Both the position numbers and the translations under genes were made by a program. Positions 7,927 to 59,479 of a DNA stretch of 64,000 nt are shown piece by piece; the stretch's first letter is position 1, and every line of letters begins with the position of its first letter. The notes under the pieces were generated by a model. The model had not been told where the DNA came from and did not search any database. It was given only the letters and a program-made list of their open reading frames with translations. The DNA comes from Thelephora terrestris (taxonomy: Eukaryota; Basidiomycota; Agaricomycetes; Thelephorales; Thelephoraceae). Location of the stretch: assembly GCA_015956445.1 (NCBI GenBank), contig WIUZ02000028.1:62001-126000 (forward strand). Direction: 5' to 3'.

Positions 7927-7957
<31 letters not shown>

Positions 7958-8485: not shown

Positions 8486-11400
8486 TGTCAGGGCCACTCT
8501 ACCCCAACAACTACCAGTGCACTGAGCCGACTCCGCAGAGTACTCACTAGTCCAACTAGCTTGTGAGAGAACGATCACATCTCTATTCTTCCGGTAGGTT
8601 GTCCGAGGTCACTACAAGTCAGGTCGAAATCCTAAAGAGAAACCCAACCTAAACCGTACTTCATTCGGTTTAACAAGCAAGGGTTTATCCCTACAACAGG
8701 ATTGATGACTCCACCAGGTGATCGACTGGACGCTCGAGGTGTTCTAATGTGACTGCTGGGAGTCTATAGTTACGAGGCGCAGTTGACGCGCAGAGTGGGA
8801 GGGAGAGCAGATGGGGGATGTCTTGGATCAAACAAGAAACTCTGACTTGTCCTTAACTGCAACTGGGCTGAGAAGGGCAGAGGATTTCCTGAGGTAACAA
8901 AACTAAGGTACTACGATACAGCCACAGTTGCTACTTATACTAAAGGAGTGGCCATGACGTCAATACCCTAATATACCCTTATCAAGTCCGAACAAAGGGA
9001 GATAAGGAGTGTGTGAACGCTAAGTAAGGGAAGCGAACAAATATGACACGTGGGAGAATAAAGGACAAAGGGCCTTACTAGCATGTGAAGGATTGCATAA
9101 AAGATAACGAATGTCCGCATGAAACATAGGGGTAAAGATAACACTAGTCCTAAAAGAAAGAGGGGCATGGGGTCATGAAAGTTCGTACCTGGGGATCACA
9201 CCCAAGGGCTAGGTGAGAATCTTCTTGGATGCTTCCTTTGGAGAGGCCAAAGATAGAGACCATACAGCATCCCTTGTTGTCTGTAGGCGGTAACAGCATC
9301 ACAGACTAGTGGCAACCTCAACGTACGTCCGAACATGAGGAGGTCAGGCCTAGACTCATGGGACATGAGGGATTACAGATTCGCCGGCGTTTCACGCTAA
9401 TGGCTACTCCACATTCGCTGCGCTAAACAAAAGGAGTCTAAAGCACTCCTTCCGAATAACGGCGATTCCTTCCTCCGGTTAGGAGACTGTGATGTGACTG
9501 TCCACGTGTGTGATCAGGGTCCAGGGTTGATTGTAATCGTAAAGTCATGAGGGGTCGTAAAAAGGGGTTCGTGATGTCATAAAGGGGTCATCAGGGTCTT
9601 GAGACCTATTTTTAGTGCACGTGTGTTCTAGGCGTTCCGGAACGAAGTTCTTCCAAGGCCGTCCCGCGGGCCGAGGTGTCAGCTTGATGTAGTAAGCCAA
9701 CAATGATGGTACAGTGGCGGAAGTTGATGTGACCCGGACCAATGAGGTTCGTCGAGGTAGGTCACGTGAAGGATCACCGATCTAGGCTATAAGAAGGACG
9801 TCTTCTTGGAGCCATCCTTGATCAGCAACACCAGCAACTTCCCCATCATCTTACCAAAACATGTCCTTCCCCAACAACTATACCTACAAAGTCGCCAACG
9901 GCATCTCCACCATCTCTCGTATCGACCGCCGTGCCGCCGCCCGCAAGACCTATGCCAACGCGGCTGGAACTCCCTATACCACGGATGACCAGGTATGGGG
10001 GAGAGCTAGGGCTTCTTGTATTAGCGCTAACCCTTCCTCTAGGTACAGGTCGTATAGCATCAGCTTTAGACGTTGAGCTAACGGCTTCTAGATCTTGGAG
10101 GTCGTCAAGAAGGTGGACGCCGAACGTCTCAGGGAGACAATCCCTCATTTGATGGGGTTGACCTGGGACGATGAGCTCTGGGTCCGGTCCATGATCGCCG
10201 AGAAGGTGATCTTCCAGATGAGGGGTAGGTTCGGGGAGTTGGAGCATCCGATTAAGAAGGAGCTCTGGTACACCCTTCAGAGGGGGATCTACGATCAGGA
10301 CCTGTTGGAGCACGGGGCAACCGTTCCTCGGGCCGTTCGCCATGCCACCGCTTCCACCACACTGTTGTGGTTGCTCGTTCGGGAGGGAGAGAGCCGGGTA
10401 GGTTCTCTGTTTGAATATTCGAGTATGACTCTCGGCTAATCAAACGACCTAGGTTGAACGATTGGAGCGTGAGGTGAAGGAGGCGAAGGCAGACGTCCTT
10501 CGTCTGTCGGCGGAGGGTCTTCAGATGAAGGAGACTCTGGCCGCCTTCCAGCAGGGGACGAACGAGGCATTGGAGGCGATGGTTGCCAACCATCAAGAGT
10601 TGATCGCCGGGTTGAAGGTCAGGGACAACAACATCAAGGGGGCACTGGCCAGGAGGGATGAAAAGGTGCTTTCAGCCTTTGCAGGTTTATGCAATGACTG
10701 AGAGGTTCTTTAGACGGAACAGCTCGAGGACATGGTCGCTGTGTTGACGGCGCAGATCGCGTCCTTGCAGAATAAGACCTGCAACTGCAAGGAGGGTCCG
10801 AAGTTGGTTGGTCAGGGGACTGCCGATGTTCCGTTCGAGCTGGAGTACGCCGACGAGGTGGTACTCCCATCTCCTAACCCGTCGTCCTATGCGACACCTC
10901 CGATCGAGAACGCGGTTCCCGTTCCGACTCCGGCTCCGGCTTCTACGTTGGCCGAGTCTGACAAGGAGAACTGTCAGCGTTGCCCGTTGCAGCCGATCAG
11001 TCAGCTGGTCAAGATTGAGGATGAGGTCATGGAGGTAGACCGGGCCGAAGATGTTCCAAGGGCCATAGAGGTACGTTCGGTGACAACAGGGCAGCGTTGC
11101 AAACACTCTCGACGCCGTGTTGCTCATCGCATGGCTCCTTCTGCTAACCCATACCCACGTCCAGTTGAATTGGATGGTGACCAGTCTGGTCGAGATAGGG
11201 AACGAAAGTTCCGCTATTGGGTCAACCGTCCCTACCGACAGGTTGAGTCGGAGATCCAGCTTCGCCACCAGCTACGACTCGCAAGACAGGATCCCACCCA
11301 GGGGTCCGACGAGGGAGACGGAGGGTCGCTCGCCGACTATGTCAATAGTGCTGTCGAGCAGTCACCCGGTGATGGAGATGTGGGACCAAGTGTTCCAGAG

Positions 11401-11781
11401 TTCAGTGACATCTGGGAGGCTGATCGGTCCGCTCGAAGGCATCTCTTCCTATCGGCTTGAACTCGTCGTTCAGCTGAGTGCCGAAGATGGTGACGCCATG
11501 TTCGGGGAGGTCCTTGCGAGGCGGGGCCAGCACTACGATCTCCGCGATGGACAGTTGATGACCTTTAGGCCTGCCGTAGATAGAGTCGACTTTTGAGGAC
11601 GTTGTATAAGCATAGTATAGCCTTGTTGTTCCGTATTGCCGTGAATGTATGCGCGTGTGTGTGTTCTGAATGATTGGTGTGAAGGATAAGGAGTGTAAAG
11701 CATTCAAAGCATAAGAAGTGGTAAGAAGAGTTCGAAGAAAGAGCGTGTTATAAAAAGTTTAAAAATACCATGTTCCTGACA
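8486..11781 (+). mobile_element. Unit C: TG...CA LTR-like unit (3.3 kb) with an internal spliced gene
   Basis: It starts TGTCAGGGCCACTC and ends CTGACA, with perfect 5-bp duplications ACTTG (8481-8485 and 11782-11786). It sits at the loop of hairpin F1. No direct repeats are found at its two ends, so it behaves like a single LTR. The spliced coiled-coil gene reads on the plus strand (9861-11460). On the other strand, near 8930-8945, is a TATA-like TTTAGTATAAGTAG, about 450 bases before the terminal CTGACA of that strand. This is the placing expected of an LTR promoter. The TGTCAGGG end is shared with units A and E. It looks whole, and the perfect duplication suggests youth. Confidence 0.75.
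9861..11460 (+). CDS. Spliced coiled-coil protein gene inside unit C, function unknown
   Basis: Four predicted exons: 9861-9992, 10092-10397, 10453-10665 and 10714-11460, with introns of 48-99 bases and normal GT-AG ends. The first exon encodes a short basic N-terminus (MSFPNNYTYKVANGISTIS). The second has a helical, tryptophan-containing region (LTWDDELWVRSMIAEKV) also seen in the genes of A1 and A2. The third is a strong heptad coiled coil (LEREVKEAKADVLRLSAEG). The last is acidic and proline-rich. An alternative 3' splice near 11164 would give a different C-terminus ending at 11596, and I cannot choose between them. A TATA-like ATAAGAAGG lies near 9789. No enzyme motif is visible. Gag-like, host-derived or regulatory roles are all open. 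Confidence 0.6.
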
Positions 11782-12255: not shown

Positions 12256-12286
<31 letters not shown>

Positions 12287-19559: not shown

Positions 19560-21971
19560 TGTCAGGCCGACGCGACCTCTACAGTTCAATAGCACTCTTG
19601 CTATCCAAACCTATCACTCTAAGGATCAAACACACAGTTATAACCTTGTCACAAACCCAGGGATATCGGAAGTCTCTTCACAGACTAGATTGGAAGAGAG
19701 GAGAAAGAAGGAGACAAGGGTCTTCAGGCACTCTTGCTCTAAGCACACAGCAGTAGAGGTCACGGAGAGTCTGATGATAACAAATCTAAGGAGTACAGGC
19801 TAAACTACTCTGAGTATATATACTACTTAGATTTGTGACGTGACAGTGACGTGTAACTACACTAATGATACAAACACAGACAAACATGGTCCGTGCACAG
19901 CACTGCATGGTCTGTGCGTTACATGGTGACTAATGCTACAAATTATCAGCTGGTAAACGAAAGTGTGGCGGCCAATAGCAATTTGAGAGCATTACAAAGC
20001 ATTTGCAAAGCATGACGTATCCTGAGAATGTTCGGAAAGAATGTGGGTATGGCTGACTAACAGCCAATGGCAAAAGGGGAGCATATGACTAAAGATAGGG
20101 GCATATGATGTCATGTGGGTCATGCGCAGTAAACAATAGAAAGGATGACTCAACTCCTGAGTCGTGGAGGGGGCGTGGTATTTGGTATATAACCAAAGGG
20201 GGTTGGATGACTGGTCTTCCAACAAACTTCCCTTTGTTACACACCGCCAATATGCCTCGTGCTCAAACTCGCATTCCCACTCGTTGTTCTACCTCCTACT
20301 CTCCTGTTCAGGAGAGCAATTACAACATCGACCGCTTCTCCCATGCCCGTCGGGATCCATCCCGCCCTTATCCCACTTTGGGATCCATCATGGACCGCAC
20401 CGCCACCGCCGACCCAAATGAGGGGTTCTCTGATTTAGGTGGGGGCTCTGCTTGTGCGTTCCGATTTAGGAAACCAAGCTAACTCCTTTTAGGTTTCAGG
20501 GACTTTCTCCAAGCCGCTCGTAGGGTGTCTCGGCGCAAGTTGGCGCGCATAGAGACCAACCCATATGCGAACGAACTCCTTAATAGGGGTGTCGAGTTCA
20601 TGACGGAGTCCAATGAGACCTTCAACTCCGTGTTGGAGGCCAGCGTTCTTCATACGGGGAACGTTGGGTCCATGTTAATGGATGAAGTGGCTCACATCAA
20701 TGAACGTGTTGATGTTCGTCGCGAAGAGATAGAAGCCTTGGAGAGTTGGAAGGAGGATATGCAGGGAGTTATTCATGGGCAAGAGGATAGCGTTGTTCGA
20801 CAGGGGGCCGATATCGATTCGTTGAAGGTAAGAAAGTTTGGGTCAGGAGTAATTGATCTTTCTAACTCAAACTTTCTTTTTAGGGAGAGGTGACTACCCT
20901 TAAGGACTTGGTCCAGGCCTTGGTTACCAAGACTGGAGAATTGGAGGACGATAAGGTAACGGGTAGGGGCTGAAGGTTTTTGATGTCTTCTAACCCTATT
21001 CGTTTTAGGTTCGCCTTAATCGTCGTATCTCCGAGTTGACCGGAGAAGTCCGGGATCTCCAGAGGAGGTGTAACGAGCCGGAGGTCCGAGTGGAAGAGGA
21101 AGAGTTGGAGGTTCCGGAGCGGGCCGAATCTCCGCCTGCTCGTCTCGTGGTCCAGTATGAGAATAGGTTGGTTCCTATCGACGATGAAGTCGTTGAGATT
21201 CAGGAGGAGGAGTTCTACAGGAATGTCGGAGTTGTCCGTAGGGACACTCCTGTTCCTCGTAGGAGAATGACTCCTCTAATCACGGTTACGGATACGACTT
21301 TGCCGAGGAACCGATGGCCGGCTCTGGAGTTCGATCCGTATGCCGAGTTTGTTCCTGATTCGGAACCGAACTCTGATACAGAGCTTCCAGATTACGAGGA
21401 CCTGTCGGACGTGGACCCGAATGAGATTAGGGAGCAGAACTGGGCGAATGAGGAGTTGGTGAGGGCCGCCTTGGAGACAGTACAAAGGATCCGCAGAGAT
21501 ATTGATTAGATAACTCTTTTGTACTCTGTCTCCTTGGAATTGATCTTCTTTCTTGTTTATTGTATATGATTCATGAGTCATAAAGCATAATGGTTTTCGT
21601 AAGTCCAATCCAAGGGTCAGATTAATAAGTCGGTTGACTTCTGCGAGAGGTCAACACGCGACACTTATTAATACATCCCTTGTTGTCGGTAGCCTGAATA
21701 TCTACTAGTCGTCCAGGGGCAACGGAGGGCCAGGTAGGGGGAATCTTCGTATGAAGGTTCGCCGGTACATGTTCACGTATTATACCTCGGGTCTTCTGGG
21801 GTATCTTGACTAGTAGCACGTTCCACGTATTGGACTTTGAATCGTTAGGCATAGGTCATATGGCATAATAAACAGTTTACCGCCATGTTTAGGGCAGGGC
21901 ACCAACTGACTTAGTGGTGATGAGGCGTTAAATAAAGGAAATGAAAGGGGGTAAACGGCGAAATCATCACA
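19560..21971 (+). mobile_element. Unit B2: TG...CA LTR-like unit (2.4 kb) carrying a spliced gene
   Basis: It has the same ends as B1 and perfect 5-bp duplications CTCCT (19555-19559, 21972-21976). It landed in the same transposase gene 140 bases away from B1, in the same orientation. The minus-strand TATA lies near 19808-19822. It looks whole, and differs from B1 at scattered bases, so the two are separate insertions rather than a tandem duplication. Confidence 0.8.
20252..21509 (+). CDS. B-family coiled-coil protein gene (copy in B2)
   Basis: Predicted exons are 20252-20438, 20493-20827, 20884-20955 (72 bases) and 21009-21509, the same structure as in B1. The middle coiled coil differs from B1 (EIEALESWKEDMQGVIHGQ) and matches the copy in B3, so B2 and B3 form one subgroup and B1 and B4 another. 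The acidic C-terminus is conserved but lacks the short insert PHRAGSPIVPNR seen in B1 and B4. The TATA (GGTATATAACC) lies near 20187. The frame is open throughout. Confidence 0.65.
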
Positions 21972-23489
21972 CTCCTCGTCTACCTCAGATCCCGAAGGGC
22001 TGCTGTCCTGAGAAAGGGTTCGATTGATACGCCCTATGGGTTGTAGGATAGGAGTGCCACAGGGTTCGGACGCTTCCGTTGGCCTGTGAGTACACGCCTT
22101 TTCTGTGACGGTGAGGGGGTATAACGTGTAGCACTTGGAGCACATGACGTATGTGGTCATGATAGGATCCAGTCGGAACTTTTGCAAAACTGTGCGCAAG
22201 TCATGCGGAATGTATTTGAGCCGTTCTGAAGGTACACTGGCAAGGTGAAGGATGTTGCGCAGACCAGCAAGTACTACATCTGTTCTTCGGCGAGAAAGGT
22301 TGAAGAGGAACCGCAAGATGAGGGTGAGAACCAGGGAGGCATAGACAACGGGTAACTGTGATGATTTTGCCGTTTACCCCCTTCAATTTCCTTTATTTAA
22401 CGTCTCATCACCACTAAGTCAGTTGGTGCCCTGCCCTAAACACGGCGGTAAACTGTTTATTATGCCATATGACCTATGCCTAACGATTCAAAGTCCAATA
22501 CGTGGAACGTGCTACTAGTCAAGATACCCCAGAAGACCCGAGGTATAATACGTGAACATGTACCGGCAAACCTTCATATGAAGATTCCCCCTACCTGGCC
22601 CTCCGTTGCCCCTGGACGACTAGTAGATATTCAGGCTACCGACAACAAGGGATGTATTAATAAGCGTCGCGCGTTGACCTCTCGCAGAAGTCAACCGGCT
22701 TATTAATCTGACCCTTGGATTGGACTTACGAAAACCATTATGCTTTACGACTCATGGATCATGCATAAAACAAAAATAGAAGATCAATTCCAAGGAGACA
22801 CAGTACAAAAGAGTTATTTAATCAATATCTCTGCGGATCCTTTGTACTGTCTCCAAGGCGGCCCTCACCAACTCCTCATTCGCCCAGTTCTGCTCCCTAA
22901 TCTCATTCGGGTCCATGTCCGACAGGTCCTCGTAATCTGGAAGCTCGGTATCAGAGTTCGGTTCCGAATCAGGAACAAACTCGGCATACGGATCGAACTC
23001 CAGAGCCGGCCATCGGTTCCTCGGCAAAGTCGTATCCGTAACCGTGATCAGGGGAGTCATTCTTCTACGAGGAACAGGAGTATCCCTACGGACAACTCCG
23101 ACATTCCTGTAGAACTCCTCCTCCTGGATCTCAACGACTTCATCATCAATGGGAACCAACCTGTTCTCATACTGGACCACGAGACGAGCAGGCGGAGACT
23201 CGGCCCGCTCCGGAACCTCCAATTCTTCCTCCTCGACACGGACCTCCGGCTCGTTACACCTCCTCTGGAGATCCCGGACTTCTCCGGTCAACTCGGAGAT
23301 ACGACGAGTAAGGCGAACCTAAAACAAGAAGGGTTAGAATGATAATAAACATCTTCTATCCCTACTCGTTACCTTATCGTCCTCCAATTCTCCGGTCTTG
23401 ATAACCAGAGCCCGAACCAGATCTTTAAGAGTGGACAACTCTCCCTAGAAGGAAATGTTGGGTTAGAAAAGTCAATTATCTCCTGACCC

Positions 23490-29225: not shown

Positions 29226-29491
29226 GACGTACATGAGGTCCATTCGTTTCTCCAGTCTAGCAATCCTCTCTTCTCGTTCGCGCTCCTGACGATCCAGGAG
29301 GGGCTTGTAGTGACCAGCTTGGTCCCAAACATGGTCGGGGGCGTTGTGCTCCCGAAGGAACTCTTGAGCCATCTCGTTGTCTCGAGCAATGGTGGCCAGA
29401 GTGTCGTACAAGAATTGTTCGACGTCATAGGGGGTAGAGGCCTCATAAGGAGAGGCGGAGACGAACGGGGTGGCAGCAGCGTTGAGAGACA
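29226..29491 (-). pseudogene. First part of the unit E antisense gene
   Basis: The minus-strand frame from 29491 begins MSLNAAATPFVSAS, then has a helical acidic stretch and a coiled coil (RQEREREERIARLEKRMDLM). It is cut off where B3 begins. A TATA box (GTGTATATAAC on the minus strand, ~29590) lies about 100 bases upstream. The order of basic or neutral N-terminus, helical region and coiled coil resembles the genes in A and C. Confidence 0.5.
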
Positions 29492-29698
29492 TAGTAATAG
29501 AAGGTTGGTTGTGGGAGGAAGAAGTTGTGGTAGATGGTGGGAGGGGAAAAGAGACGATGGGAGGAAAAGACTCAGATACCTCCTGAGTTATATACACCCA
29601 AACCCATGGAACGCCCAAAAGGGTAAAGACAATAGCCCGTTATCCATTAACGACCCAAAAAGGATAAACGAACCCTCAACCCAAATCGCGATCCCATC

Positions 29699-30843: not shown

Positions 30844-30864
30844 GCAGGCCCACAACCCTGACAC

Positions 30865-42034: not shown

Positions 42035-42909
42035 CACTAGGGGCGAACCCCAGTTTCCTGGCCCAGGACATTGTAAATACATTGTAAGGAAATGGAAAAT
42101 GTGCCTGGCAATGACCCACCTGGTACATCATAAATACATTCAAAATGTCCAGGCCAATTTCCTTAGAGTGTTGCCAGCACAAGAAATGCTCAGTACATTC
42201 ATGGTATTCCTGGTCATGTGATCTCAGTGTTCCCATTAGGTAATCCATGGGAACATCATGAATTTTCCCAAAGAAATACCCATGATGTCCCTGAGTGGCT
42301 CATTGAAAGAAAACTGTCAGTGTGCTGAATTTTATTCCTTTTTGAACCATTTTCACACCCAACTTCCGCCCACTTTCCTTACCTATACCCCTTTCCTATC
42401 TTATCATTTCCCTTATCACGACTCACACGTCATCAAGAAACACAGACAAGGCACAGATGATATTACAGCGGGCGAACCCGCAACGAAGACACAAGACGAA
42501 TGGCCAACGGAGTTGAATCCGCACCGACCCTATGGACAGAGACTACCGTGCATCGACCCTAGTCGTCAAGACCTAGTCTGCCGGTACTCCTCAGCACTGG
42601 CAACCTCCTCCTCCGTCCCCTCCAAGGCACTCTCGACAACTTCCTTGTCGACCATCTCGACGACCCGAGCTTCCTCCAGACGATGAGCTACGGCCAGCTG
42701 AACCTCGGCGCGCAGGCGGTTCCTCGCTGAACCGACCGTAGTCTGATCCAGAGTCCTCTGGACTGACCAACCCTCCACTCTCTCGGTCAGTTGAGCCACC
42801 AGGCGAACGGCCTCCGCTGCACGCTGGACCGACAAGAGCATAAGGTTGGTTAAGCCGTTCACGTCGACGGACTCCACCGGAATCAGCTCGCCGCGATCCA
42901 GGCGACACT

Positions 42910-43440
42910 CACTGGGGGCAAGGGGACCTGGAAACGAGTGCTTACATGCTGAGAACATTGTGAGACCAGGTGCACTTTTCTCACAATTTTCCCACTGACT
43001 ACAGATGAGAAGCATCTCAAATGTTCCCTTGACCTGAAATCCAAATGTTTAAGCCGACAACATTCAGAATGTTTCCAGAAAATGTTCTCCAAAATGTTCT
43101 ATGATGTGCCCAGTGGGAACATCTTAAATGTATTCTAAATATCAGAGAACATTTCAATAGCTTTTTAAATGCCAGAGAACATTTCAATTGTTTCTCAAAA
43201 AATCAAAGAACATGTCCATAACATCGCAGTATCATTTTGCCTGCGTGTGAGAAAAATTGCAATAACATTCTTTGGAAACATTTTGATTGTTACCAGTGGA
43301 AAAGTTTTGGTCACATACCAAGAGAACATTTGAAATGTTTCCCATCTGTAATTGGTGGTAACATTGTGAGAAAAGTGCACCTGGTCTCACAATGTTTTCA
43401 GCATGTAAGCACTTGTTTCCAGGTCCCCTTGCCCCCAGTG
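42910..43440. mobile_element. Palindrome P6 (531 bp), CACTGGGG family
   Basis: Ends CACTGGGGGCAAGGGGACC and complement, duplication ACT (42907-42909, 43441-43443). The arms reiterate GAACATTTC and AAATGTTC motifs. Same terminus and first motif as P9. Confidence 0.9.
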
Positions 43441-44733
43441 ACTGCAACATCGTCGCATCGGAATAGGACGGTGGACTCGATGTCTCCACCCTGGCGGACA
43501 GCGTCAGGATTACTGGGACGCATGCGGTGGGCTGGACGAAGTGCTCCATGATAAGGAACCCATCGACGAGCACGGATAGAACGTTGCCCACGCACCGGCG
43601 AGATCGACGGAGGCGGAATCGGAACAGCCACCTCGTTCTCCCCCGCATACTCCAACTCCGGAGAACTACTAACCGGGTTGACCGCGGTCTCCTCGGACGT
43701 CTCACGGACGACCTCCTCCCCGCCATCGGTACGCGCCGGCGTACGGTACGGACCATCTGAGGCTAAAAAGGATGTCAGTGGACAAGCCAAATATGTCAAC
43801 CGACATCCCGACCTATTGGGGAAGCCATCCGATCCGGAATTGACTCGTCATCAGACTCATCGCGAACTGCAGCCACCGAACGAGTACGACAGTGGCAGAG
43901 TCGTTCGCTCATCGACTCAACCCGAGCGCCCAGCAACGGCAAGGCGTCATCCAACGTGTCAACCTAGAAGTGGCGTGAGCTCTCTTGGATGAAGACCAGG
44001 AGAAGTCGCACCAACCTTGGTATCCAGCTCATTCAGAGCCCTTCTATGACGGTTGAGCCGTCGGTCGACCTCGATCAAGTCCCGCTGAATGGTATCGTCC
44101 CTCTCCTTCAAAGATTCGACCAGTCGGTTGTGCTCTTCGCGCATCGCCAGCATCTCGCTCTCAAACGTTACACGAAGCGTATCGTTCATTAGGAGCAGCG
44201 TCTTCTTCATGTCCAACGCTTCCGAGTACATCCTACGGGCATCGTCCTTCGCTTCCTTCACCTCACGTTTCAGCCGCTCATTCTACAAGTCCATCAGTGT
44301 TATCCCACAAGCGGGATGCACAGACCGACTCACCGCTTTCTGTTCCGTCCTCAATAGGAACCAAAGGCGGTGACCCACGGCAGCTGTGTAGTGTTGAGAA
44401 CGCGTCGCTCCAGGCCACCTTCCTTCCCCGTTCCCCAAGTCGTAGATTCCCATCCGCAGAAGCCCCCACAACGACGAAGCCACCGGAGTCTCATACGGCA
44501 TGCGTAACTCAGTATTGAACGTTACCCCACGCATCGACTCCTGCAGCTTGTGGTTGATCAAGTTGTGGTACCACAACTCATCGTCCATGGTCAGGTAGCT
44601 GGGAGGCTTGGCGATCGTCGCCTCCAGTTGACGAGCATCCACCTTGTCAGCAGCCGCGAAGATCTACAAATGCGATGTCAGTTGTTGCCAGCAAACGGCG
44701 ACACGTGACGTCGCACCTCGCGATAACTTGGAT

Positions 44734-46170
44734 CAGTAGTCCTTATTAAAAACATTAATGTTTTAGGAGTTTTTGTCACAAATTTGAATGATTTTTCTCA
44801 TGAGTTTTTGAATGGCCTGAGGGGGGATATTTTACTCATAAAGTTTTAATGGAAATTATGGGGGGGACTGGGACCCAGCTTACTGGGCACTGGTGCTCCC
44901 AATTAGGCAGGTGCCGACAGTGTGGGTGGCCTGGGAGAGTGGATTGCTTATATAATAAAAATTAAAAAATTCAGGAAAATTCCAGAAAATTCCCACGGGT
45001 GTCAGGGAGGGCAGAAAATGAAAAATGGACTGTGGGAATTTCCGATCAAAATTTCCCAAAAAGGAAATTTTTGATGGCTTACATAAGCAACTCAAAAATG
45101 ATTTTGATATTGAATTTCCTTTTTGGGAAATTTTGATGGCTGACATAAGCAGGTCATGTGACTGAAAAAAGTGGGTGTTGCTTATGTAATCAGGTCATGT
45201 GACCGACCAAAAAAGGAAAGTTTTGATGGCTTACATAAGCATCTCAAAAATGCTTTTGGAGGGGTCTTTCCTAAAAAAGAATTTCCTTTTTAGAAAATAT
45301 TTGATGGATTACCAAAAAAGGAAAATTTGATGACTTACATAAGCAGCTCAAAAATGCTTTTGGAGGGGTCTTTCCTAAAAAAGAATTTCCTTTTTAGGAA
45401 AGAGTTTCCAAAAAAGGAAGTTTTGATGGCTTACATAAGCAACTCAAAAATGATTCTGGCAAAAATTACCAAAAAAGGAAATTATATGCTAGAAAACTCG
45501 GAAAAATGCCAGAAAAATCCTAAAAAATACTGAAAAAATTCCCACACGTCTAGAAAGTGCCCAAAATGGTAAATTATTCCCAGAAATATTCAAAAAATTG
45601 TTTTTCTGGCTGGAAAAATCAGGAAAAAATTCCAAAAATTCCAGAGTATAGATAAATATTTTATAAAAATTATTCCAATTTTTTTGGTCCATTGAATAGC
45701 CCATAATTTCAATATTAATATATTTTTTGCCCAAAAAATTCATAAAAATCTCCAAAAAATAGATAAAAATAGGAAAATACAAATATATCTGTAATATTCA
45801 TTATATCATGAAGTACAGACCAGTTTGTGGTCATAAACTAGCCCTAAACCTAGTCCTGGACCTAACCTAACCTAACCTAGCCTAACCTTAACTCTAACCC
45901 TAACCTAGCCTAACCCTAACTCTAACCCTAACCTAGACCTAAACCTACACCTAACCTAAACCTAAACCTAACCTAACCTAACCTGACCTAACCTAACCTA
46001 ACCTAACCTAACCTAACCTAACCTAACCTAACCTAACCTAACCCCAAACCTAACCTGCCCTAAACCCAGCCTGCCCCAAACCTATCCTAGCACCAAACCT
46101 AAACCTAAACCTAAACCTAACCTGCCCTAAACCTAACTCTGACCTGGCCTAGTTCAGCCTTATCTTATCT

Positions 46171-46201
<31 letters not shown>

Positions 46202-47198
46202 TCTTATTCTGTCTTACCTACCCTAGACCCAACCTAACCTGACATAGTCAACTTAACCTGGTCCACCACAGATCACCCAACCTAACCTAAAGTGGTCTAC
46301 CTGACCTAGACTGATGCAACTTGAGTTTATCTCTTCTAATCAGCTGTTATCCTATCTGGCCTTAATCTAAATACCGTAGCTAACCAACATCTAACCCAAC
46401 CTCACCTGGCTCACCAGCAAGTAACTGGGCTACAGGAACACACCGTGAGCTGCACCATCCCATATCCTATATCCAACTGTCACTCAAACACAAGAACTGT
46501 GGTGGACCTACAAGTTAGTGGACCCATAAGCCCACAGACCCACAAGTATAGGCTGTTCACTCAGTGGAAACATCTGTTATCCATCCTCACTCACGTACCA
46601 CCCTCACCCTGTGTTCTGTGCCAGACTGCAACTTCACCACAGCTCATGTTCAGCCACCTAGCTAAACCCATGTACAATCAGGTCTACAAATCCATGGATC
46701 CATAACAAGTAGTCTATCACCCTGACTTGCAGGTTCAGCTAGGTGGCTGAACATGAGCTGTGGTGAAGTTGCAGTCTGGCACAGAACACAGGGTGAGGGT
46801 GGTACGTGAGTGAGGATGGATAACAGATGTTTCCACTGAGTGAACAGCCTATACTTGTGGGTCTGTGGGCTTATGGGTCCACTAACTTGTAGGTCCACCA
46901 CAGTTCTTGTGTTTGAGTGACAGTTGGATATAGGATATGGGATGGTGCAGCTCACGGTGTGTTCCTGTAGCCCAGTTACTTGCTGGTGAGCCAGGTGAGG
47001 TTGGGTTAGATGTTGGTTAGCTACGGTATTTAGATTAAGGCCAGATAGGATAACAGCTGATTAGAAGAGATAAACTCAAGTTGCATCAGTCTAGGTCAGG
47101 TAGACCACTTTAGGTTAGGTTGGGTGATCTGTGGTGGACCAGGTTAAGTTGACTATGTCAGGTTAGGTTGGGTCTAGGGTAGGTAAGACAGAATAAGA

Positions 47199-47229
<31 letters not shown>

Positions 47230-48665
47230 AGATAAGATAAGGCTGAACTAGGCCAGGTCAGAGTTAGGTTTAGGGCAGGTTAGGTTTAGGTTTAGGTTTA
47301 GGTTTGGTGCTAGGATAGGTTTGGGGCAGGCTGGGTTTAGGGCAGGTTAGGTTTGGGGTTAGGTTAGGTTAGGTTAGGTTAGGTTAGGTTAGGTTAGGTT
47401 AGGTTAGGTTAGGTCAGGTTAGGTTAGGTTAGGTTTAGGTTTAGGTTAGGTGTAGGTTTAGGTCTAGGTTAGGGTTAGAGTTAGGGTTAGGCTAGGTTAG
47501 GGTTAGAGTTAAGGTTAGGCTAGGTTAGGTTAGGTTAGGTCCAGGACTAGGTTTAGGGCTAGTTTATGACCACAAACTGGTCTGTACTTCATGATATAAT
47601 GAATATTACAGATATATTTGTATTTTCCTATTTTTATCTATTTTTTGGAGATTTTTATGAATTTTTTGGGCAAAAAATATATTAATATTGAAATTATGGG
47701 CTATTCAATGGACCAAAAAAATTGGAATAATTTTTATAAAATATTTATCTATACTCTGGAATTTTTGGAATTTTTTCCTGATTTTTCCAGCCAGAAAAAC
47801 AATTTTTTGAATATTTCTGGGAATAATTTACCATTTTGGGCACTTTCTAGACGTGTGGGAATTTTTTCAGTATTTTTTAGGATTTTTCTGGCATTTTTCC
47901 GAGTTTTCTAGCATATAATTTCCTTTTTTGGTAATTTTTGCCAGAATCATTTTTGAGTTGCTTATGTAAGCCATCAAAACTTCCTTTTTTGGAAACTCTT
48001 TCCTAAAAAGGAAATTCTTTTTTAGGAAAGACCCCTCCAAAAGCATTTTTGAGCTGCTTATGTAAGTCATCAAATTTTCCTTTTTTGGTAATCCATCAAA
48101 TATTTTCTAAAAAGGAAATTCTTTTTTAGGAAAGACCCCTCCAAAAGCATTTTTGAGATGCTTATGTAAGCCATCAAAACTTTCCTTTTTTGGTCGGTCA
48201 CATGACCTGATTACATAAGCAACACCCACTTTTTTCAGTCACATGACCTGCTTATGTCAGCCATCAAAATTTCCCAAAAAGGAAATTCAATATCAAAATC
48301 ATTTTTGAGTTGCTTATGTAAGCCATCAAAAATTTCCTTTTTGGGAAATTTTGATCGGAAATTCCCACAGTCCATTTTTCATTTTCTGCCCTCCCTGACA
48401 CCCGTGGGAATTTTCTGGAATTTTCCTGAATTTTTAATTTTTATTATATAAGCAATCCACTCTCCCAGGCCACCCACACTGTCGGCACCTGCCTAATTGG
48501 GAGCACCAGTGCCCAGTAAGCTGGGTCCCAGTCCCCCCCATAATTTCCATTAAAACTTTATGAGTAAAATATCCCCCCTCAGGCCATTCAAAAACTCATG
48601 AGAAAAATCATTCAAATTTGCGACAAAAACTCCTAAAACATTAATGTTTTTAATAAGGACTACTG
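44734..48665. mobile_element. Giant hairpin element F2 (3.9 kb)
   Basis: Near-perfect inverted repeat with ends CAGTAGTCCTTAT shared with F1 and arms of about 1.95 kb. The content order is as in F1: GATGGCTTACATAAGC motifs, AT-rich zone, CCTAA tract (45840-46140), TTATC repeats and inner stem. The loop near 46,700 is nearly the same as the F1 loop. Its right end touches P7 directly. Compared with A2, about 70 bases of A1 sequence are missing at the insertion site, and no clean duplication is seen. Confidence 0.85.
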
Positions 48666-49389
48666 CACTGGGGGCAAGGGGGTACTTACCCAGTGGGTAC
48701 ATTGTGAGTTCATTGTTGGTTTTGAAACCATTCACCCAGTTGTTACCCACCAGGTACTTTTTGGGGACTTTTTGAAAGATACTCATCAATTTGCCTGCAT
48801 TTTACCCACTGGGTACATGGTGGGTACTTTGTAAAATTACCCACTCAGGAACCCAGTGGGCATTTTTTGAGTGAAACCCCTGGGTTCTTTCACAATTCAC
48901 TTTCCAATGTGCCCATCAAACACCTGAGTCACTCATTGAGAGTTTTTTCATAAAGTACCCACCAATCTGATTACAATGTACTCAACCACATACACAATGG
49001 GTTCTTTGAGAGTTTGTGGTAAAACTGAGCCACATTGTTAGTTCTTTGTGAGTTCTTTCATAAAATACCCACTGATCTGATCAAAACGTACCCAGTGGGT
49101 TTTTTTCAAAGAACTCTCAATGAGTGACTCAAGTTTGTGATGGGCACATTGGAAAGTAAATTGTGAAAGAACCCAGGGGTCTCACTCAAAGAGTACCCAC
49201 TGGGTTCCTGAGTGGGTACTTTTACAACATGCCCACCATGTACCCAGTGGGTAAATCCAGGCGAATTTATGGGTATCTTTCAAAAAGTACCCAGAAAGTA
49301 CCTGGTGGGTAATGACTGGGCAAATGGTTTCAAAACCCACAATGAACTCACAATGTGCCCACTGGGTAAGTACCCCCTTGCTCCCAGTG
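48666..49389. mobile_element. Palindrome P7 (724 bp), CACTGGGG family, abutting F2
   Basis: Ends CACTGGGGGCAAGGGGG and CCCCTTGCTCCCAGTG. The arms reiterate GGGTACATTG and AAAGTACCC. Unlike the other palindromes, the bases outside its ends (CTG and ATA) do not match, because its left end coincides with the F2 terminus. Confidence 0.85.
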
Positions 49390-49899
49390 ATAGTAGCGGT
49401 GCTGCTCTCAGCACGGAAGACGCGATCGGAAACCATGGGCATAATGGATGAGTAGTTGGTTGGTGGAAGTGTTGATTTGGGAAGAAGGGAGTTTGATGGA
49501 TCCAACGGCCGGTTCGCGCTACGCTTTATCCGACCATCGACAGCGCTCGCGTCCTATTCGCCATTGGATCGGTCCATCGTTGCATCGGTCCATCATTGCA
49601 TCGGTCCAGACTCCTCATACATTCGCCCTCGACATTCAGGCCCCACTCGGTCTTTTGTTGCCCCGATCGAACGAGCTGACGTGTCGTTCTCTCATTGGTT
49701 CGTCTTCACATGTGATATTGTTCTTTGTCATTCCTTTCCCACACGACGTCATGACCCCTTTCTTATTCTCTCATGAACCCTGACCCATTAGTCATTCCTT
49801 TATCATTTTCTATTCTATAACCCGGGCCGCTTACTGTTCCAGCTTACTCTCGGCCCTTCTTTGCTCCGAGTTATTATTAGATAGGGCTATCTATGTCCC

Positions 49900-50382
49900 G
49901 GCCACTCTTCTATATAAGTACCGGTAGAGTAGCTAAGGACTCCCCATCTTTGATATCTCGGGAAGTCCTCTTCTCCTTGCAGCATCGGTGTATTTGCTGT
50001 AGGCCACTGAAGAGCTTATCGAGTAACTCTCTGAACACGTTCGCTCTCCTCTCTCTCTCGGCCTTGCATCAAGAATCGGCGAACGCGCTTACGAAAAGGA
50101 GTTCCTCGCCGCTCTCTTGATCAAGCACCAGTTTGAGGCGCCATCCTCAGGCTCTTATATCTGCCCTCAGAAGACGATAGGGATTTATTGGATAGAGGCT
50201 CGGCACTCCTGCTGTGAATTCAGACAACCTACCGGAGAACGCTCGTCCATCGCGTTTTGGACCACGTAGACTTTGGGTGGATATAGGGAAGTCGTTCCCC
50301 CTTTGCCCCATTGTTTCTTGTTGGTTGGAGTTGCGACTCACCAACAGCACTGGTACCTGAAGGGCGAAGAGTGGCCCTGACA
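49900..50382 (+). promoter_or_regulatory. LTR-like promoter and R-U5-like segment of unit A1
   Basis: CTATATAAGTACCGG at ~49910 is followed by pyrimidine-rich AGTCCTCTTCTCC and then about 450 bases to the terminal CTGACA. The same segment is present in A2 at ~58990-59462 (CTATATAGGTACC). It reads opposite to the gene within the unit. Confidence 0.5.
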
Positions 50383-51830: not shown

Positions 51831-53211
51831 AAATTTGAAGCGACCTCCTCCTCATTCCTTGAGCCCCCACGAACCACCCTCAGCCACTCCCGCCTCGTCA
51901 ACATCCCAAGATCTCTCTCCCGCATCCCTCATTGCATCCCCATTGTCTGAAGATATCCCGTCGTCGCTCACAGCAGCTCCAGACACGTCACCATCACCCC
52001 CCTCCTCTTCTGACACCTCCACAAAGTCAGACGAGTCCCAGATTTCCTCACCACCCCAAGAGGAAATCTCCCAGTTCATCCTCACAAGAATCCCCTTCGC
52101 GATGACTCGGCGACTCGCCACCAGATCTGCGATCTCGTCCACCTTGTTGCGCTCCCTGGTGATCTGGGAACGGAGACTCACGCGCAGCTGCTTGATAGCA
52201 ACCGGCAAGTCCTGTGGCTCACCCCATCCCTTCTCGAACTCGTGGAAGTCCACATCCAAGCTATGGACCCCGGAGCACAAGCCAGAAGTACTCCCTACGG
52301 ACAAACCGGCCATCGTGGCTGTAGGTACCACGAGACTCGACCCTACCGCAGCAGCTTTAGTCCGGGAGCACATAGAAACGGTGGTGGAAGCCCCTACGGC
52401 CTCAGAAGTCCTATCCTTCTTCGCGCGAGTGGATCTCTTTGGTTTCGGGACACTTTCTTCTTCACCGGTGAGCTCTCCCGCAGGAGGCTTGGATTTGCGA
52501 CGTTCCGCGGCCACGGTTTGACGGTGGTTGTCCCCCTTCTTCGAACGCTCAATAAGAGGCCAATGGGTGATCCCAAAATCCTGGTCTTTGAAAGAACAGC
52601 CCTTCTTCTGGGTGATACAGGTCTGGCAGATGAGGTACACGCACTCATCAACTGATCGCAGGGCCAGATGCCAGAGAGGATGACACGATCTCTCGCGACT
52701 GGGCTTGCCACAACAGTAATCGCAAGACTACGAAGATGTCAGAAGCTTTTAACGCAACGATGGAAAGAGCGCGAAACATACCATTGGGCGCGCACCCGGG
52801 AACTCATCCAGATCCAGAGGCGTCCCCTCCCCAAAAACCTCGCCAGTTAGGTCAACAGGTGGAAAATCTGGAACACAACTCCAGTGACCCACTTTTGTCA
52901 GCGTGCTGAATTTTAACTTCTTTTTGAACCATTTTCACACCCAACTTTCGCTCACTTTCCTTACCTATACCCCTTTCTTATCTTATCAATTTCCCTTATC
53001 ACGACTCACACGTCATCCAAAGCACAGACAAAGACACGGCAGATAATATTACATACGGGTGCACCCACAACGAAGCCACAAGACGACTAGCCGACGGAGT
53101 TGAACCCGCACGGACTCTATGGACGAGGACTAAGGTGTACAGACCCTAGCCGTCAAGACCTGGTCTGCCAGTACTCCTCAGCACTGGCAACCTCCTCCTC
53201 CGTCCCCTCCG

Positions 53212-55615
53212 TGTCAGGCTGACACGACCTCTACAGTTCAATAGCACTCTTGCTATCCAAACCTATCACACTCAGGGGTCAAACACACAGTTATAACCCT
53301 GTTGCAAACCCAGGGATATCGGAAGTCTCTTCACAGACTAGATAGGAAGAGGGGAGAAAGAAGGAGACAAGGGTCTTCAGGCACTCTTGCTCTAAGCACA
53401 CAGCAGTAGAGGTCACGGAGAGTCTGATGATAACAAATCTAAGGAGTACAAACTAAACTACTCTGAGTATATATACTACTTAGATTTGTGACGTGACAGT
53501 GACATGTAACTACACTAATGATACAAACACAGACAAACATGGTCCGTGCACAGCACTGCATGGTCTGTGCGTTATGTGGTGACTAATGCTACAAATTATC
53601 AGCTGATAAACAAAAGTGTGGCGGCCAATAGCAATTTGAGAGCATTACAAAGCAGTTACAAAGCATGACGTATCATGGGAATGTTCGGAAAGAATGTGGG
53701 TATGGCTGAGTAACAGCCAATGGCAAAAGGGGAGCATATGACTAAAGATAGGGGCATATGATGTCATGTGGGTCATGCGCAGTAAACAATAGAAAGGATG
53801 ACTCAACTCCTGAGTCGTGGAAGGGGCGTGACATTTGGTATATAACCAAAGGGGGTTGGATGACTGGTCTTCCAACAAACCCACCTTTGTTACACAGCCA
53901 ACATGCCTCGTGCTTCAACTCGTCGTTCTTCTTCTTATTCTCCTGTCCAGGAGAATAATTTCAATATTGATCGTTTCTCTCACGCTCGTCGTGATGCTTC
54001 TCGCCCTTATCCTACTTTGGGAAATGTCATGGACCGGACCGCCACCGCCGACCCTAATGAGGGTTTTACCGATTTAGGTTCGGGATGCCGGTTGACATAT
54101 TTGACATGTCTGCTGACGTTCCGCTTTCAGGTTTCCGGGATTTCATCCAGGCTTCTCGTAGAGTGTCTCGGCGCAAGTTGGTGCGTATTGAGACCAACTC
54201 TTATGCGACCGAACTCCTTAACAGGGGTGTCGAGTTCGTTACTGAGACCAATGAGACCTTCAACTCCGTGTTGGAGGCCAGTGTTATCCATACGGGTAAC
54301 GTTGGGTCCATGTTGATGGATGAGATTGCTCATGTTAATGAGCGAGTTGATGGTCGCCGCGAAGAGATCGAGAAGTTGGAGAAGGAATTCCTTGGATGTC
54401 ACGAGGGCATCTTGAAGATTGAAGATGAGCAAGAGCAGCATGGTATGGCGATTGACAGGTTGAAGGTAAATGTGGGGTCGGGAGATATTGAACATCTCTA
54501 ACCCAACATTTCCTTTTAGGGAGAAGTGATCACATTGAAGGACTTGGTCCGGAGTCTCGTTGCGAAGACCGGAGAGTTGGAAGATGATAAGGTACGGGGG
54601 CAGGGATCGAAGATAATTAACTTCTTCTAACCCTGTTCCTTTAGGTTCGCCTTACTCGTTGCATTTTCGAGTTGACCGGAGAAGTCCGGGATCTCCAGAG
54701 AAGGTGCAACGAACCGGAGGTCCAAGTTGAAGAGGAAGAGTTGGAGGTTCCCCATCGGGCTGGTTCGCCGATAGTTCCTAATCGGGCCGAGTCGCCACCC
54801 GCTCGTCTGTTGGTCCGTCACGAGAACAGGTTGGTCCCCGTCGATGATGAGGTCATTGAGATCGGGAGCGACGAATTCTATCGGAACGTAGGAGTTGTCC
54901 GTAGGGATACTCCTCATCCTGAGTTTGTGTCTACTCCTTGGGGTAGTCGTCGTCAATGGCCTGCCCTGGAGTATGACCCGTACGCCGAGTTCGTTCCTGA
55001 TAGTGAACCGAACTCTGACACGGAGCTTCCAGATTACGATGACTTGTCGGACGTGGACCCAAATGAGATCAGGGAGCAGAACTGGTTGAATGAGGAGTTG
55101 GTGCGATCGGCCTTGGAAGTAGTACAAAGGATTCACAGAGATATTGATTAATAACTCTTTTGTACTGTTAAACTTCTTTGGAATTATCCTTTGTTTTGTC
55201 TATTGCGTGCGATCCATGAGTCGTAAAGCATAATGGTTTTCGTAAGTCCAATCCAAGGGTCAGATTAATAAGCCGGTTGACTTCTGCGAGAGGTCAACGC
55301 GCGACACTTATTAATACATCCCTTGTTGTCGGTAGCCTGAATATCTACTAGTCGTCCAGGGGCAACGGAGGGCCAGGTAGGGGGAATCTTCGTATGAAGG
55401 TTCGCCGGTACATGTTCACGTATTATACCTCGGGTCTTCTGGGGTATCTTGACTAGTAGCACGTTCCACGTATTGGACTTTGAATCGTTAAGCATAGGGC
55501 ATATGGCATAATAAACAGTTTACTGCCATGTTTAGGGCAGGGCACCAACTGATTTGGTGGTGATGAGGCGTTAAATAAAGGAAATAAAAAGGGGGTAAAT
55601 GGCGAAATCATCACA
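53212..55615 (+). mobile_element. Unit B4: TG...CA LTR-like unit (2.4 kb) carrying a spliced gene
   Basis: Ends TGTCAGGCTGACACG and ATCATCACA, with perfect 5-bp duplications CTCCG (53207-53211, 55616-55620). It lies in the A2 gene. Its overall structure is as in B1. It looks whole. Confidence 0.8.
53903..55151 (+). CDS. B-family coiled-coil protein gene (copy in B4)
   Basis: Predicted exons are 53903-54077, 54131-54465, 54520-54591 (72 bases) and 54645-55151. The protein is closest to B1: it shares KEFLGCHEGILKIEDEQEQ and the PHRAGSPIVPNR insert. The N-terminus is shorter by a few residues (MPRASTRRSSSYSPVQ). The TATA (GGTATATAACC) lies near 53838. The frame is open throughout. Confidence 0.65.
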
Positions 55616-57350
55616 CTCCGAGGCACTCTCGACGGCTTCCTTGTCAACCATCTCGACGACCCGAGCTTCCTCCAGACAATGAGCTGCGACCAGCTGCACT
55701 TCAGCACGAAGGCGGTTCCTTGCTGAATCGACCATAGTCTGATCCAGACTCCTCCGAGCTGACCAGCCCTCCATCCTCTCGGTCAGCTGACTCACCAAGC
55801 GCACGGCCTCCGCTGCATGCTGGACCGACAAGAGCGTAAGGTTCGTCAAGTCGTTCACGTCCACAGACTCCACGGGTATCAGCTCGCCGCAATCCAGGCG
55901 ACACTGCAACATCGTCGCGTCGGAATAGGACGGTGGACTCGATGTCCCCTCCCTGCCGGACGACGTTGGGATTGCTGGGACGCATCCGATGGGCTGGACG
56001 ACGGACACAGGAGAGATAAGGAACCCAACGACGGGCGCGAATGGAACACTGTCCACGTACCGGAGAGATCGCAGGAGGCGGAACCACAATAGCCACCTCG
56101 TTCTCCCCAGCGTGCTCCAACTCGGGCAAACTACTGACCGGGTTGACAGTCGTCTCCTCAGACGTCTCGCGAACGACCTCCTCCCCGTCATCAGTACACG
56201 TCGGCGTATGATACGAGCCGATCAAGGCTAAACGGAACGTCAGCGGACAGGCTAAAGATGTCAACCAGCATCCCGAACCTATCGGAGAAGCCATCCTGTC
56301 CGGAATCGATTCGTCATCGGACTCCTCGCGGACCGCAGCCACCGAACGCATATGGCAGTGGCACAGTCGCTTGCTCATGGACTCGACCCGAGCACCCAGC
56401 AACGGCAAGGTGTCGTCCAACGTATCAACCTAGAAGTGGAATGAGTTCCCTCAGCTCAACGCCAGGGGATGTCACACTAACCTTGGTGTCCAGCTCGTTC
56501 AGAGCCCTTCTATGACGGTTGAGCCGTTGGTCGACCTCAATCAGGTCCCGTTGAATGGTGTCGTCCCGCTCCTTCAGCGACTCGACCAATCGATTGTGTT
56601 CCTCCCGCATCGCCAGCATCTCGCTCTCGAACGTCACGCAAAGTGTGTCGTTCATTAGGAGGAGCGTCCTCTTGGTGTCCAGCATCTCTGAGTACATCCT
56701 GTTGGCATCGTCCTTCGCTTCCTTCACCTCGCGCTTCAGCCACTCATTCTATAAGTCTATCAGTGTTATCCCACAAGCGGGATGCACAGATCGACTCACC
56801 GCTTTCTGTTCCGTCCGCAAAAGGAACCAGAGACGGTGACCAACAGCTGCTGTGTAGTGTTGGGAGCGAGTAGCTCCAGGCCACTTCCCCTCACCGTTCC
56901 CCAGGTCGTAGATGCCCATTCGCAGAAGACCCCACAACGCCTTGGACACAGGTGTCTCCCACGGCATGCGCAACTCTGCATTGAACGTCACCCCGCGCAT
57001 CGATTCCTGTAGCTTGTGGTCGATCAAGTTGTGGAACCACAACTCGTCGTCCATGGTCAGGTACTTGGGAGGTGTATCAATTGTTGCCTCCAGTTGTCAG
57101 GCGTCCACCTTGTTGGCGACGGCGAAGATCTAGGAAAGCGCTGTCAGTTGAACGCCAACAACTGGTGTGCGCGTGACAACACGCCTCTTGGTAACTGGGA
57201 TACGCCACATTGGCGTTCGGCAGGAAGTAGCTCTTGTTCTGCACGGATCGAGGATCCGCGGACTCGATGGTGGCGATGCTGTTCTCGGCACGGAAGACGC
57301 GGTCAGATGTCATGGGCATGATGGTAGATGAGTAGTTGGTTGGTGGGTAT

Positions 57351-58575
57351 CACTGGGGACAAACCCCAGTTTCCCGGCCTGGGACATCATAAATACATTG
57401 TAAGGAAATGGAAAATGTGCCTGGCAATGACCCACCTGGTACATTGTAAATACATTCAAAATGTCCAGGCCAATTTCCTTAGAGTGTTGCCAACACAGGA
57501 AATGCTCAGTACATTCATGGTGTTCCTGGTCATGTGATCTCAGTGTTCCCATTAGGTAATCCATGGGAAAATCATGAATTTTCCCTAAGAAATACCCATG
57601 ATGTCCCTGAGTGGCTCATTGAAAGAAAACCCTGAGTGAACCCACAGTTTCCCAGGTCATGTGACCTTGATGTCCTGATTAGGTAATCTGAGGGTAAACC
57701 ATGAATTTTCCCAAAGAAAGTAACCATGGTGTTCCTGAGTGGCTCATTCACAGTGTTCTTTCCAGTGTTCCCAGTGGTGCCATCATGGTGTTCCCAGTCA
57801 GTAAAATTCAAATTGTGCCTTAACGGTGCGCCGGAAGTGTACCAGTGTGGTATATCCTGAAAGTACTAAGGCCTTCGACCATGATGTACCAAAATTCGGC
57901 AAATCATCAGGAAACTGTGGAAACATTGAAAGGAAACTGGGGACGTTGGGAACATCATAAACCCATTCAAAATGTTCCCAATTTCTCAGTTTCCTTTCAG
58001 TGTTCCCACAGTTTCCTGATGATTTGCCGAATTTTGGTACATCATGGTCGAAGGCCTTAGTACTTTCAGGATATACCACACTGGTACACTTCCGGCGCAC
58101 CGTTAAGGCACAATTTGAATTTTACTGACTGGGAACACCATGATGGCACTACTGGGAACACTGGAAAGAACACTGTGAATGAGCCACTCAGGAACACCAT
58201 GGTTACTTTCTTTGGGAAAATTCATGGTTTACCCTCAGATTACCTAATCAGGACATCAAGGTCACATGACCTGGGAAACTGTGGGTTCACTCAGGGTTTT
58301 CTTTCAATGAGCCACTCAGGGACATCATGGGTATTTCTTAGGGAAAATTCATGATTTTCCCATGGATTACCTAATGGGAACACTGAGATCACATGACCAG
58401 GAACACCATGAATGTACTGAGCATTTCCTGTGTTGGCAACACTCTAAGGAAATTGGCCTGGACATTTTGAATGTATTTACAATGTACCAGGTGGGTCATT
58501 GCCAGGCACATTTTCCATTTCCTTACAATGTATTTATGATGTCCCAGGCCGGGAAACTGGGGTTTGTCCCCAGTG
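57351..58575. mobile_element. Palindrome P8 (1225 bp), CACTGGGG family
   Basis: Ends CACTGGGGACAAACCCC and complement, duplication TAT (57348-57350, 58576-58578), centre near 57963. Near-identical to P5 apart from scattered bases. It lies just upstream of the A2 gene start. Confidence 0.9.
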
Positions 58576-59479
58576 TATGTTGATTTGGGAAGAAGGGAGT
58601 TTGATGGATCCAACGGCCGGTTTGCGCTACACTTTATTCGACCATCGACAGCGCTCGCGCCCTATTCGCCATTGGATCGGTCCATCGTTCCACCGGTCCA
58701 GACTCCCCATACATTCGCCTCGACATTCACGCCCCACTCGGTCTTTTGTTGTCCCGATCGGACGAGCTGACGCGTCGTCCTCTTACTGGCCAGTCTTCGC
58801 ATGTGATATTGTTCTTTGTCATTCCTTTCCCACACGATGTCATGACCCCTATTTTATTCTATTGACCCCTTAGTCATTCATTGTCATCTGTTTCTCACAC
58901 TCCGGGCCGCTTACGTTTCATGCTTACTCATGGCCCTTCTTTGCTCCGAGTTATTATTAGATAGGGTTATCTCTGTCCCGGCCACTCTCCTATATAGGTA
59001 CCAGTAGAGTAGCTGAGGACTCCCCATCTTTGATATCTTGGGAAGTCCTCTTCTCCTTGCAGCATCGGTGTATTTGCTGTAGGCCACTGAAGAGCTTATC
59101 GAGTACCTCTTTGAACACGTTCGCTCTCCTCTCTCTCTCGGCCTTGTGTCAGGAATCGATGAACGCGCCTACAAAAAGGGGTTCCTCGCCGCTCTCTTGA
59201 TCAAGCACCAGTTTGAGGCGCCATCCTCGGGCTCTTGTATCTGCCCTCAGAAGACGATAGGGATTTACCTGATAGAGGCTCGGCACTCCTGCTGTGAATT
59301 TGGACAACCTACCGGAGAACGCTCGTCCATCGTGTTTTGGACCACGTAGACTTTGGGTGGATATAGGGAAGTTGTTCCCCCTTTGCCCCATTGTTTCTTG
59401 TTGGTTGGAGTTGCGACTCACCAACAGCACTGGTACCTGAAGGGCGAAGAGTGGCCCTGACAGCTTTCTCCTTCCCTGT

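Follow-up and report, generated by a model that had tools for sequence, protein, structure and literature searches.

The retrotransposons Tf1 and Tj1 use self-priming, according to the part of the source cited here (PMC4600332). In Retand, Grande, RIRE2 and Botrytis Boty (brtn), an antisense gene is placed between pol and the 3' long terminal repeat (LTR) in the relevant portions of two sources (PMC7264820, PMC11963269). The HBZ gene of HTLV-1 is described, in a section of its source, as an antisense gene that has an LTR promoter, occurs in spliced as well as unspliced form and includes a leucine-zipper region (PMC10186651), and an antisense gene within the HIV-1 LTR has been claimed in the excerpt to which we refer (PMC1654176). 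In the present study, we analyzed a stretch of 64,000 nucleotides of Thelephora terrestris DNA (contig WIUZ02000028.1, positions 62,001 to 126,000; hereafter, the window), in which units with TG...CA ends, termed A, B, C and E, each carry a coiled-coil gene predicted to be spliced. In the mouse mammary tumor virus, the superantigen is a protein encoded by a gene inside the LTR (in U3), on the sense strand and with no such introns. The LTRs of Tf1 and Tj1 are shorter than those described here.

We think that the A and C units are LTRs of self-priming chromodomain Ty3/gypsy elements, that the B and E units are most likely related LTRs, and that a spliced antisense gene lies with its promoter in U3. 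We give this reading a probability of about 0.82. The A and C elements resemble Tf1/Tf2 and Tj1 in their TG...CA LTRs, 5-bp duplications and gag, protease, reverse transcriptase (RT), RNase H and integrase, in the Tf2-type SH3 domain with a chromodomain, and in a primer-binding site (PBS) complementary to the predicted 5' end of the RNA. Unlike in those elements, the Thelephora LTRs are 2.9-3.3 kb long and have a spliced antisense gene inside U3. With Retand, Grande, RIRE2 and Boty, as far as the cited portions describe them, they share an extra gene that is antisense to gag-pol, is retained in most copies and adjoins the 3' LTR. In that group the gene is internal, whereas the Thelephora gene lies inside the LTR, is present twice per element and is retained in solo LTRs; the internal region of the A and C elements holds no antisense gene of this kind. 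As with HTLV-1 HBZ and HIV-1 ASP, the antisense gene is under an LTR promoter. Unlike the retroviral antisense genes, it is a whole multi-exon gene in the U3 of a fungal retrotransposon, and the likeness implies no relation of sequence. In the open-licence literature, which lacks most subscription papers, we found neither an antisense gene inside a retrotransposon LTR nor published T. terrestris elements of such a kind.

The T. terrestris assembly searched comprises 40.6 Mb in 60 contigs. The search with a part of A (55616-57350) matched contig C23 twice, in the same orientation and at a distance of 8758 bp, and matches to RT and integrase sit between these two A copies. The LTRs of this A-type element are 2931 bp long and differ by two mismatches, and ATGTC stands at both outer sides. 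By fetching the sequences around other RT places, we located further A-type elements on C12 near 1.33 Mb (LTRs of 2934 bp) and on C5 near 1.12 Mb (LTRs of 2932 bp), and a C-type element on C12 near 3.17 Mb, the LTRs of which are 3324 bp long with 1 mismatch. The two LTRs inside each element differ at 1-2 positions, and the 5-bp duplication was exact in 4/4 elements (three A-type, one C-type).

The bodies of one A-type and one C-type element were scanned for Pfam domains. In both types, the gag zinc knuckle, aspartyl protease, RT, RNase H, H2C2 (the integrase zinc domain), Tf2-type SH3 and chromodomain scored above the cut-off. The chromodomain forms the C-terminus of the integrase part and reached 44.0 bits in A and 64.4 bits in C against a cut-off of 25.1. 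The rve core scored 34.5 in the C-type element, above the cut-off of 32.6, and 26.0 in the A-type protein, below it. RT and RNase H precede integrase in both types, which is the Ty3/gypsy domain order, and the gap from the pol stop to the 3' LTR is 11 nt in A and 20 nt in C. A junction pattern made of the LTR end and the PBS matched exactly three A-type places, and the pattern made for B matched eight C-type places with two mismatches. Each of these A-type and C-type junctions is accompanied, at a distance of 2-3 kb, by an RVT_1 match in the same orientation, downstream of the junction in all eight C-type cases, and the reversed-control patterns gave 0 matches.

Because paired, near-identical A-type and C-type LTRs flank gag-pol, the A and C units are LTRs of Ty3/gypsy elements, mostly solo. 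The A and C elements are complete, recently mobile and chromodomain-bearing. An earlier analysis of the window from its letters alone (the sequence-only reading) had chiefly considered that the units could be solo LTRs, 2.4-3.3 kb long, each carrying a multi-exon gene in antisense, and had proposed a search for two direct copies of a unit flanking RT and integrase. Such pairs were found for the A and C families and support the solo-LTR view for both, so that these two families do not call for the alternative offered there, a new class of mobile unit.

The units of the window and their genes are as follows.

8486..11781, LTR sense on the minus strand and gene on the plus strand: C unit, a solo LTR of 3296 bp, with the duplication ACTTG at 8481-8485 and 11782-11786
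9861-9992, 10092-10397, 10453-10665, 10714-11070 and 11165-11596, plus strand: exons of the C antisense coiled-coil gene, 479 amino acids
16999..19415, minus strand: B1 unit, solo-LTR-like, duplication CTTTT
17690-17876, 17930-18264, 18321-18392 and 18447-18953, plus strand: exons of the B1 gene
19560..21971, minus strand: B2 unit, solo-LTR-like, duplication CTCCT, gene on the plus strand
22357..29225, LTR sense on the plus strand and gene on the minus strand: B3 unit, interrupted by the palindrome 23507-27926, flanks agreeing at 1/5 positions
27957..30863, plus strand: right part only of the E unit, the left side of which B3 covers; the gene on the minus strand starts at 29492
30863: right end of the E unit, LTR-like, CCCTGACA
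42315..50382, plus strand: A1 unit, a solo LTR in which palindromic insertions are nested; duplication AAAAC; the minus-strand gene has its ATG at 49442
52896..59462, plus strand: A2 unit, a solo LTR enclosing B4 and the palindrome 57351-58575, flanks agreeing at 4/5 positions (ACTTT/GCTTT)
57319, minus strand: ATG of the A2 gene
53212..55615, minus strand: B4 unit, solo-LTR-like, lying within A2; duplication CTCCG, gene on the plus strand

Units A, B and C were matched to coordinates through their 5-bp duplications. All seven units C, A1, A2 and B1-B4 start with TG and end with CA, and the duplication is exact in five of the seven (C, B1, B2, B4 and A1). The sequence-only reading had given these five as exact and A2 as alike at four of five bases, and on re-reading every one of them was as stated. 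It had also called the flanks of B3 and E altered; this holds for B3, but a whole E unit elsewhere in the genome has an exact duplication. From the C family we fetched the best 30 of 58 matches with 1.5-kb flanks; 40 of 637 first-look C candidates were scored, so that every copy number given here is a lower bound. Among these 30 units, the 5-bp flanks were identical in 25, alike at 4/5 positions in two (L012, L021) and at 2/5 or fewer in three (L020, L025 and the truncated L033). A pair of 5-mers taken at random from the window is identical with a frequency of 0.0012, and none of 870 mismatched left-right pairings of the C flanks agreed at 5/5 positions, with 13 agreeing at 4/5. Chance, which the sequence-only reading had named as the finding that would speak against mobility, does not explain the duplications of the C units.

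Among the five B units looked at, the duplication was exact in four (B1, B2, B4 and the first unit of L052) and not in B3. The whole E unit (L049:7242-9498, 2257 bp), the one E unit of which both flanks were read, has ATGAC on both sides. The two B ends differ (TGTCAGGCCG and AATCATCACA), and the start region of B resembles that of C. The ends, duplications and promoter layout of B and E, and for B also the C-like start region, make it most likely that these units are LTRs from related elements, with bodies that are absent from the assembly or were not found. Two candidate pairs were rejected. In the B pair at C56, 8.3 kb apart, a separate duplication flanks the first copy, and the intervening frame is antisense to the B promoter; in the E pair at C23, the two E units are 80% alike and a degenerate C-like unit lies between them. 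Two B units also enclose an open frame of 2058 codons at L052:2331-8504; it contains a zinc-knuckle-like stretch, and its strand is opposite to that of the B promoter.

The following promoter features were assigned in the C and A units of the window.

8930..8941, minus strand: TATA box of the C LTR-sense promoter, TATAAG in 30/30 copies
8894..8905, minus strand: predicted 5' end of the C genomic RNA and 12-nt self-primer TAGTTTTGTTAC
49946..49956, plus strand: predicted 5' end of the A genomic RNA and 11-nt self-primer ATCTTTGATAT in A1
59026..59036, plus strand: self-primer ATCTTTGATAT in A2

The A-type body has, 2 nt inside, the complement of ATCTTTGATAT, which itself lies 35 nt past TATATAAG in the LTR. 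Similarly, the C-type body has the complement of TAGTTTTGTTAC, which lies 34 nt past the C TATA. The pairing of self-primer and PBS extended over 11, 11, 11 and 12 nt in the four elements examined (4/4). When the PBS was shuffled as a control, 0, 4, 5 and 6 of 2000 trials gave a match of 11 nt at some position within the last 1200 nt. The 12-mer TAGTTTTGTTAC was exact in 29 of the 30 C solo units. Judged from these matches, the arrangement in the A-type and C-type elements appears to be of the Tf1 self-priming type, with the 5' end of the RNA predicted. On the strand opposite to the gene, the distance from the TATA to the CCTGACA end was 472 nt in A1 and A2, 263-264 nt in B1-B4, 454 nt in C and about 799 nt in E; the 250-800 bases given in the sequence-only reading agree with these values. 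A TATA on the gene strand and one on the LTR strand are each present in 30/30 C copies.

The C gene lies wholly within U3. All four introns had GT-AG in 30/30 copies, and the frame was intact in 26/30, the broken copies being L011 and L033, with frameshifts, and L035 and L038. For the C unit, these results agree with the spliced antisense gene that had been proposed. The five-exon layout is common to most NCBI models, two of which (P0001, P0002) read through intron 4. A first four-exon model, which had given 22/30 intact frames and a ratio of non-synonymous to synonymous divergence (dN/dS) of 0.135, was dropped for this layout. In both LTRs of the C-type element, we found an uninterrupted read-through frame of 465 amino acids. 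Over 11165-11460, the spliced frame is open in 30/30 and the intron-4-retaining frame in 27/30 C copies, and the third frame averages 7.4 stops. The read-through frame (11071-11460) encodes a basic stretch ending in AHRM-PS-NP, which is found again exactly in 4/6 copies of the A family and with one change in a fifth. Exon 5 shows a low dS (0.12) and a high dN/dS (0.51), as expected under dual coding.

Intact genes with GT-AG at three introns were found in B1, B2 and one copy outside the window. The B4 gene failed the alignment-based check, yet it is open over 362 amino acids with its own splice sites. When protein profiles were compared, those of A and C were related over 240 columns (probability 99.3), and no relation between B and C was detectable (probability 1.6). 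The database relatives were from T. terrestris in 70/70 cases for C, 72/72 for B and 5/6 for A, the sixth being a JGI protein; for C and A, about 8000 candidates each were scored. These relatives are annotated only as hypothetical proteins. An Rfam scan of the window gave 0 matches. The structure models show one long helix, at 125-241 in C and 139-220 in B, with low confidence in the rest of the chain; on these models, the antisense protein may consist of a helical N-terminal region, a long coiled coil and a mostly disordered tail.

The antisense protein is under purifying selection. For the C gene, dN was 0.0446 and dS 0.2997, which gives a dN/dS of 0.149 (378 pairs from 28 copies, L011 and L033 being excluded here and from the site counts); in exon 3 the ratio was 0.027. 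For the B gene, it was 0.07-0.24 in six pairs. At the non-coding C positions 1-1375, singletons amounted to 0.128 per site over 28 copies, that is, about 0.4-0.5% per copy. In the C gene, 132 non-synonymous singletons at 1097 sites and 136 synonymous ones at 340 sites were counted, together with 271 shared synonymous changes. The non-coding singleton rate is near the non-synonymous one, and the synonymous divergence is old. The change in each copy after insertion looks small compared with this old divergence, so that the constraint on the protein seems to be older than the insertions and to bear on the element as it propagates, a view that is drawn from divergence and not from dated insertions. 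The singleton ratio of 0.30, compared with 0.16 for shared changes, fits some relaxation after insertion, and the mostly exact C duplications agree with young insertions. The non-coding part of C (8486-9860) is 3.3% divergent as against a dS of 0.30 in the gene, and the 5' non-coding part of B (B1, B2, B4, L052) is 2-5% divergent as against a dS of 0.44-0.84. This likeness of the non-coding LTR parts may reflect constraint or homogenisation.

These elements may work as follows. U3 makes up most of the LTR, and its antisense strand holds a complete spliced gene with its own promoter. The sense RNA would start at the self-primer past the TATA and copy the antisense gene unspliced, and it is because of this that the introns would survive reverse transcription. 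Since the gene is inside the LTR, every jump would plant gene copies in the genome, two with each integration. Recombination between the LTRs would then yield a solo LTR with the gene and promoters intact. The role of the antisense protein is most likely accessory or regulatory, and the protein would be selected while the element is active. We also suppose a shift of the polypurine tract in use to the end of pol, by which the antisense gene would have become part of the LTR. A wider proposal, which we offer tentatively and regard as somewhat doubtful, is that this lineage moved its antisense accessory gene out of the region separating pol from the 3' LTR and into the LTR by means of a polypurine tract at the pol end, and that the solo LTRs, far from being dead remnants, form a dispersed and intact two-promoter gene pool that keeps making the regulator of the element in trans, as two overlapping products of which one comes from a retained intron.

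Several points weigh against our interpretation of the units as LTRs with a working antisense gene. The C-type LTRs were read in one of the eight elements only, and no body was found beside a C unit of the subfamily present in the window among the 30 fetched; the best-40 DNA searches had missed the C-type complete elements and two A-type ones, so that absence in them is weak evidence. For B and E, the solo-LTR view of the sequence-only reading draws on ends, duplications and promoter layout, but the predicted LTR-PBS junctions (two B patterns and one E pattern) led to no B-type or E-type body; the lists of B and E copies considered were capped. The antisense proteins gave no Pfam match above the curated cut-off, which leaves their function without support from homology, and the one protein tried had no relative in the PDB. 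The structure models are of low confidence (mean pLDDT 46.5 and 53.5). Finally, the transcription, splicing and start sites of the units are predictions.

Three other explanations have to be weighed. The first is that a host gene was captured by the LTR and is kept by host-level selection in the solo copies. The many intact copies would suit this, as would the C and B protein searches, which gave T. terrestris proteins only (70 and 72 matches). However, the constraint seems older than the insertions, in line with selection on the active element, and the proteins of A and C are related while that of B is not detectably so. We therefore think that host capture is unlikely. The second explanation is that the units are DNA transposons or some new class of mobile unit that depends on a transposase or integrase acting in trans, with the coiled-coil gene as their own mobility factor. 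That the fetched C units stand alone with their own duplications, that the predicted junctions gave no B and E bodies, and that the gene is under purifying selection would agree with such a unit. Against it, A-type and C-type units flank gag-pol as near-identical direct repeats with matching PBSs, by which a DNA transposon is excluded for A and C, and the unlike B ends TGTCAGGCCG and AATCATCACA suit an LTR better than terminal inverted repeats; we consider it very improbable. Least probable of all is that the unit makes a regulatory antisense RNA, of which the open frame is a side effect and not a working protein gene: retroelement antisense transcripts can act as RNA, according to the cited portions of two sources (PMC7264820, PMC10186651), and conservation is higher in the non-coding part of the unit than at synonymous sites, but the frame and splice sites are conserved and the dN/dS values of 0.149 in C, 0.027 in C exon 3 and 0.07-0.24 in the six B pairs speak for a protein.

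The surroundings of the units are rich in large, near-perfect palindromes (23507-27926, 44734-48665, 57351-58575, 50369-51074, 30904-31780, 37757-39053 and 40602-41554), the arms of which are 96-99% identical in most and 92% identical in the last. Several end in a CACTGGGGGCAAGGGG-like sequence, and they are nested in and around the LTR units; they are probably fold-back non-autonomous DNA elements. The C unit itself stands at the center of a palindrome with arms at 6655-8424 and 11789-13581, which are 98.7% identical and carry CCTAA telomere-like repeats. At 13860-17000 and 31790-35100, long broken coding stretches resemble basidiomycete transposase genes; we take them, as a guess, to be Plavaka- or KDZ-like. 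The former stretch seems to have been the insertion site of B1 and B2.

In conclusion, the present results bear on a long-open question, that is, the function of gypsy antisense genes. Solo LTRs are usually counted as dead scars. In T. terrestris, what remains after LTR recombination would be a spliced gene, intact and under its own promoter, and the element would in this way seed a large gene family. Introns kept by antisense orientation would offer a natural way to test how a retroelement is transcribed on its sense and antisense strands. Furthermore, the system offers several independent gene families, A and C being related and B apparently not, under measurable selection.

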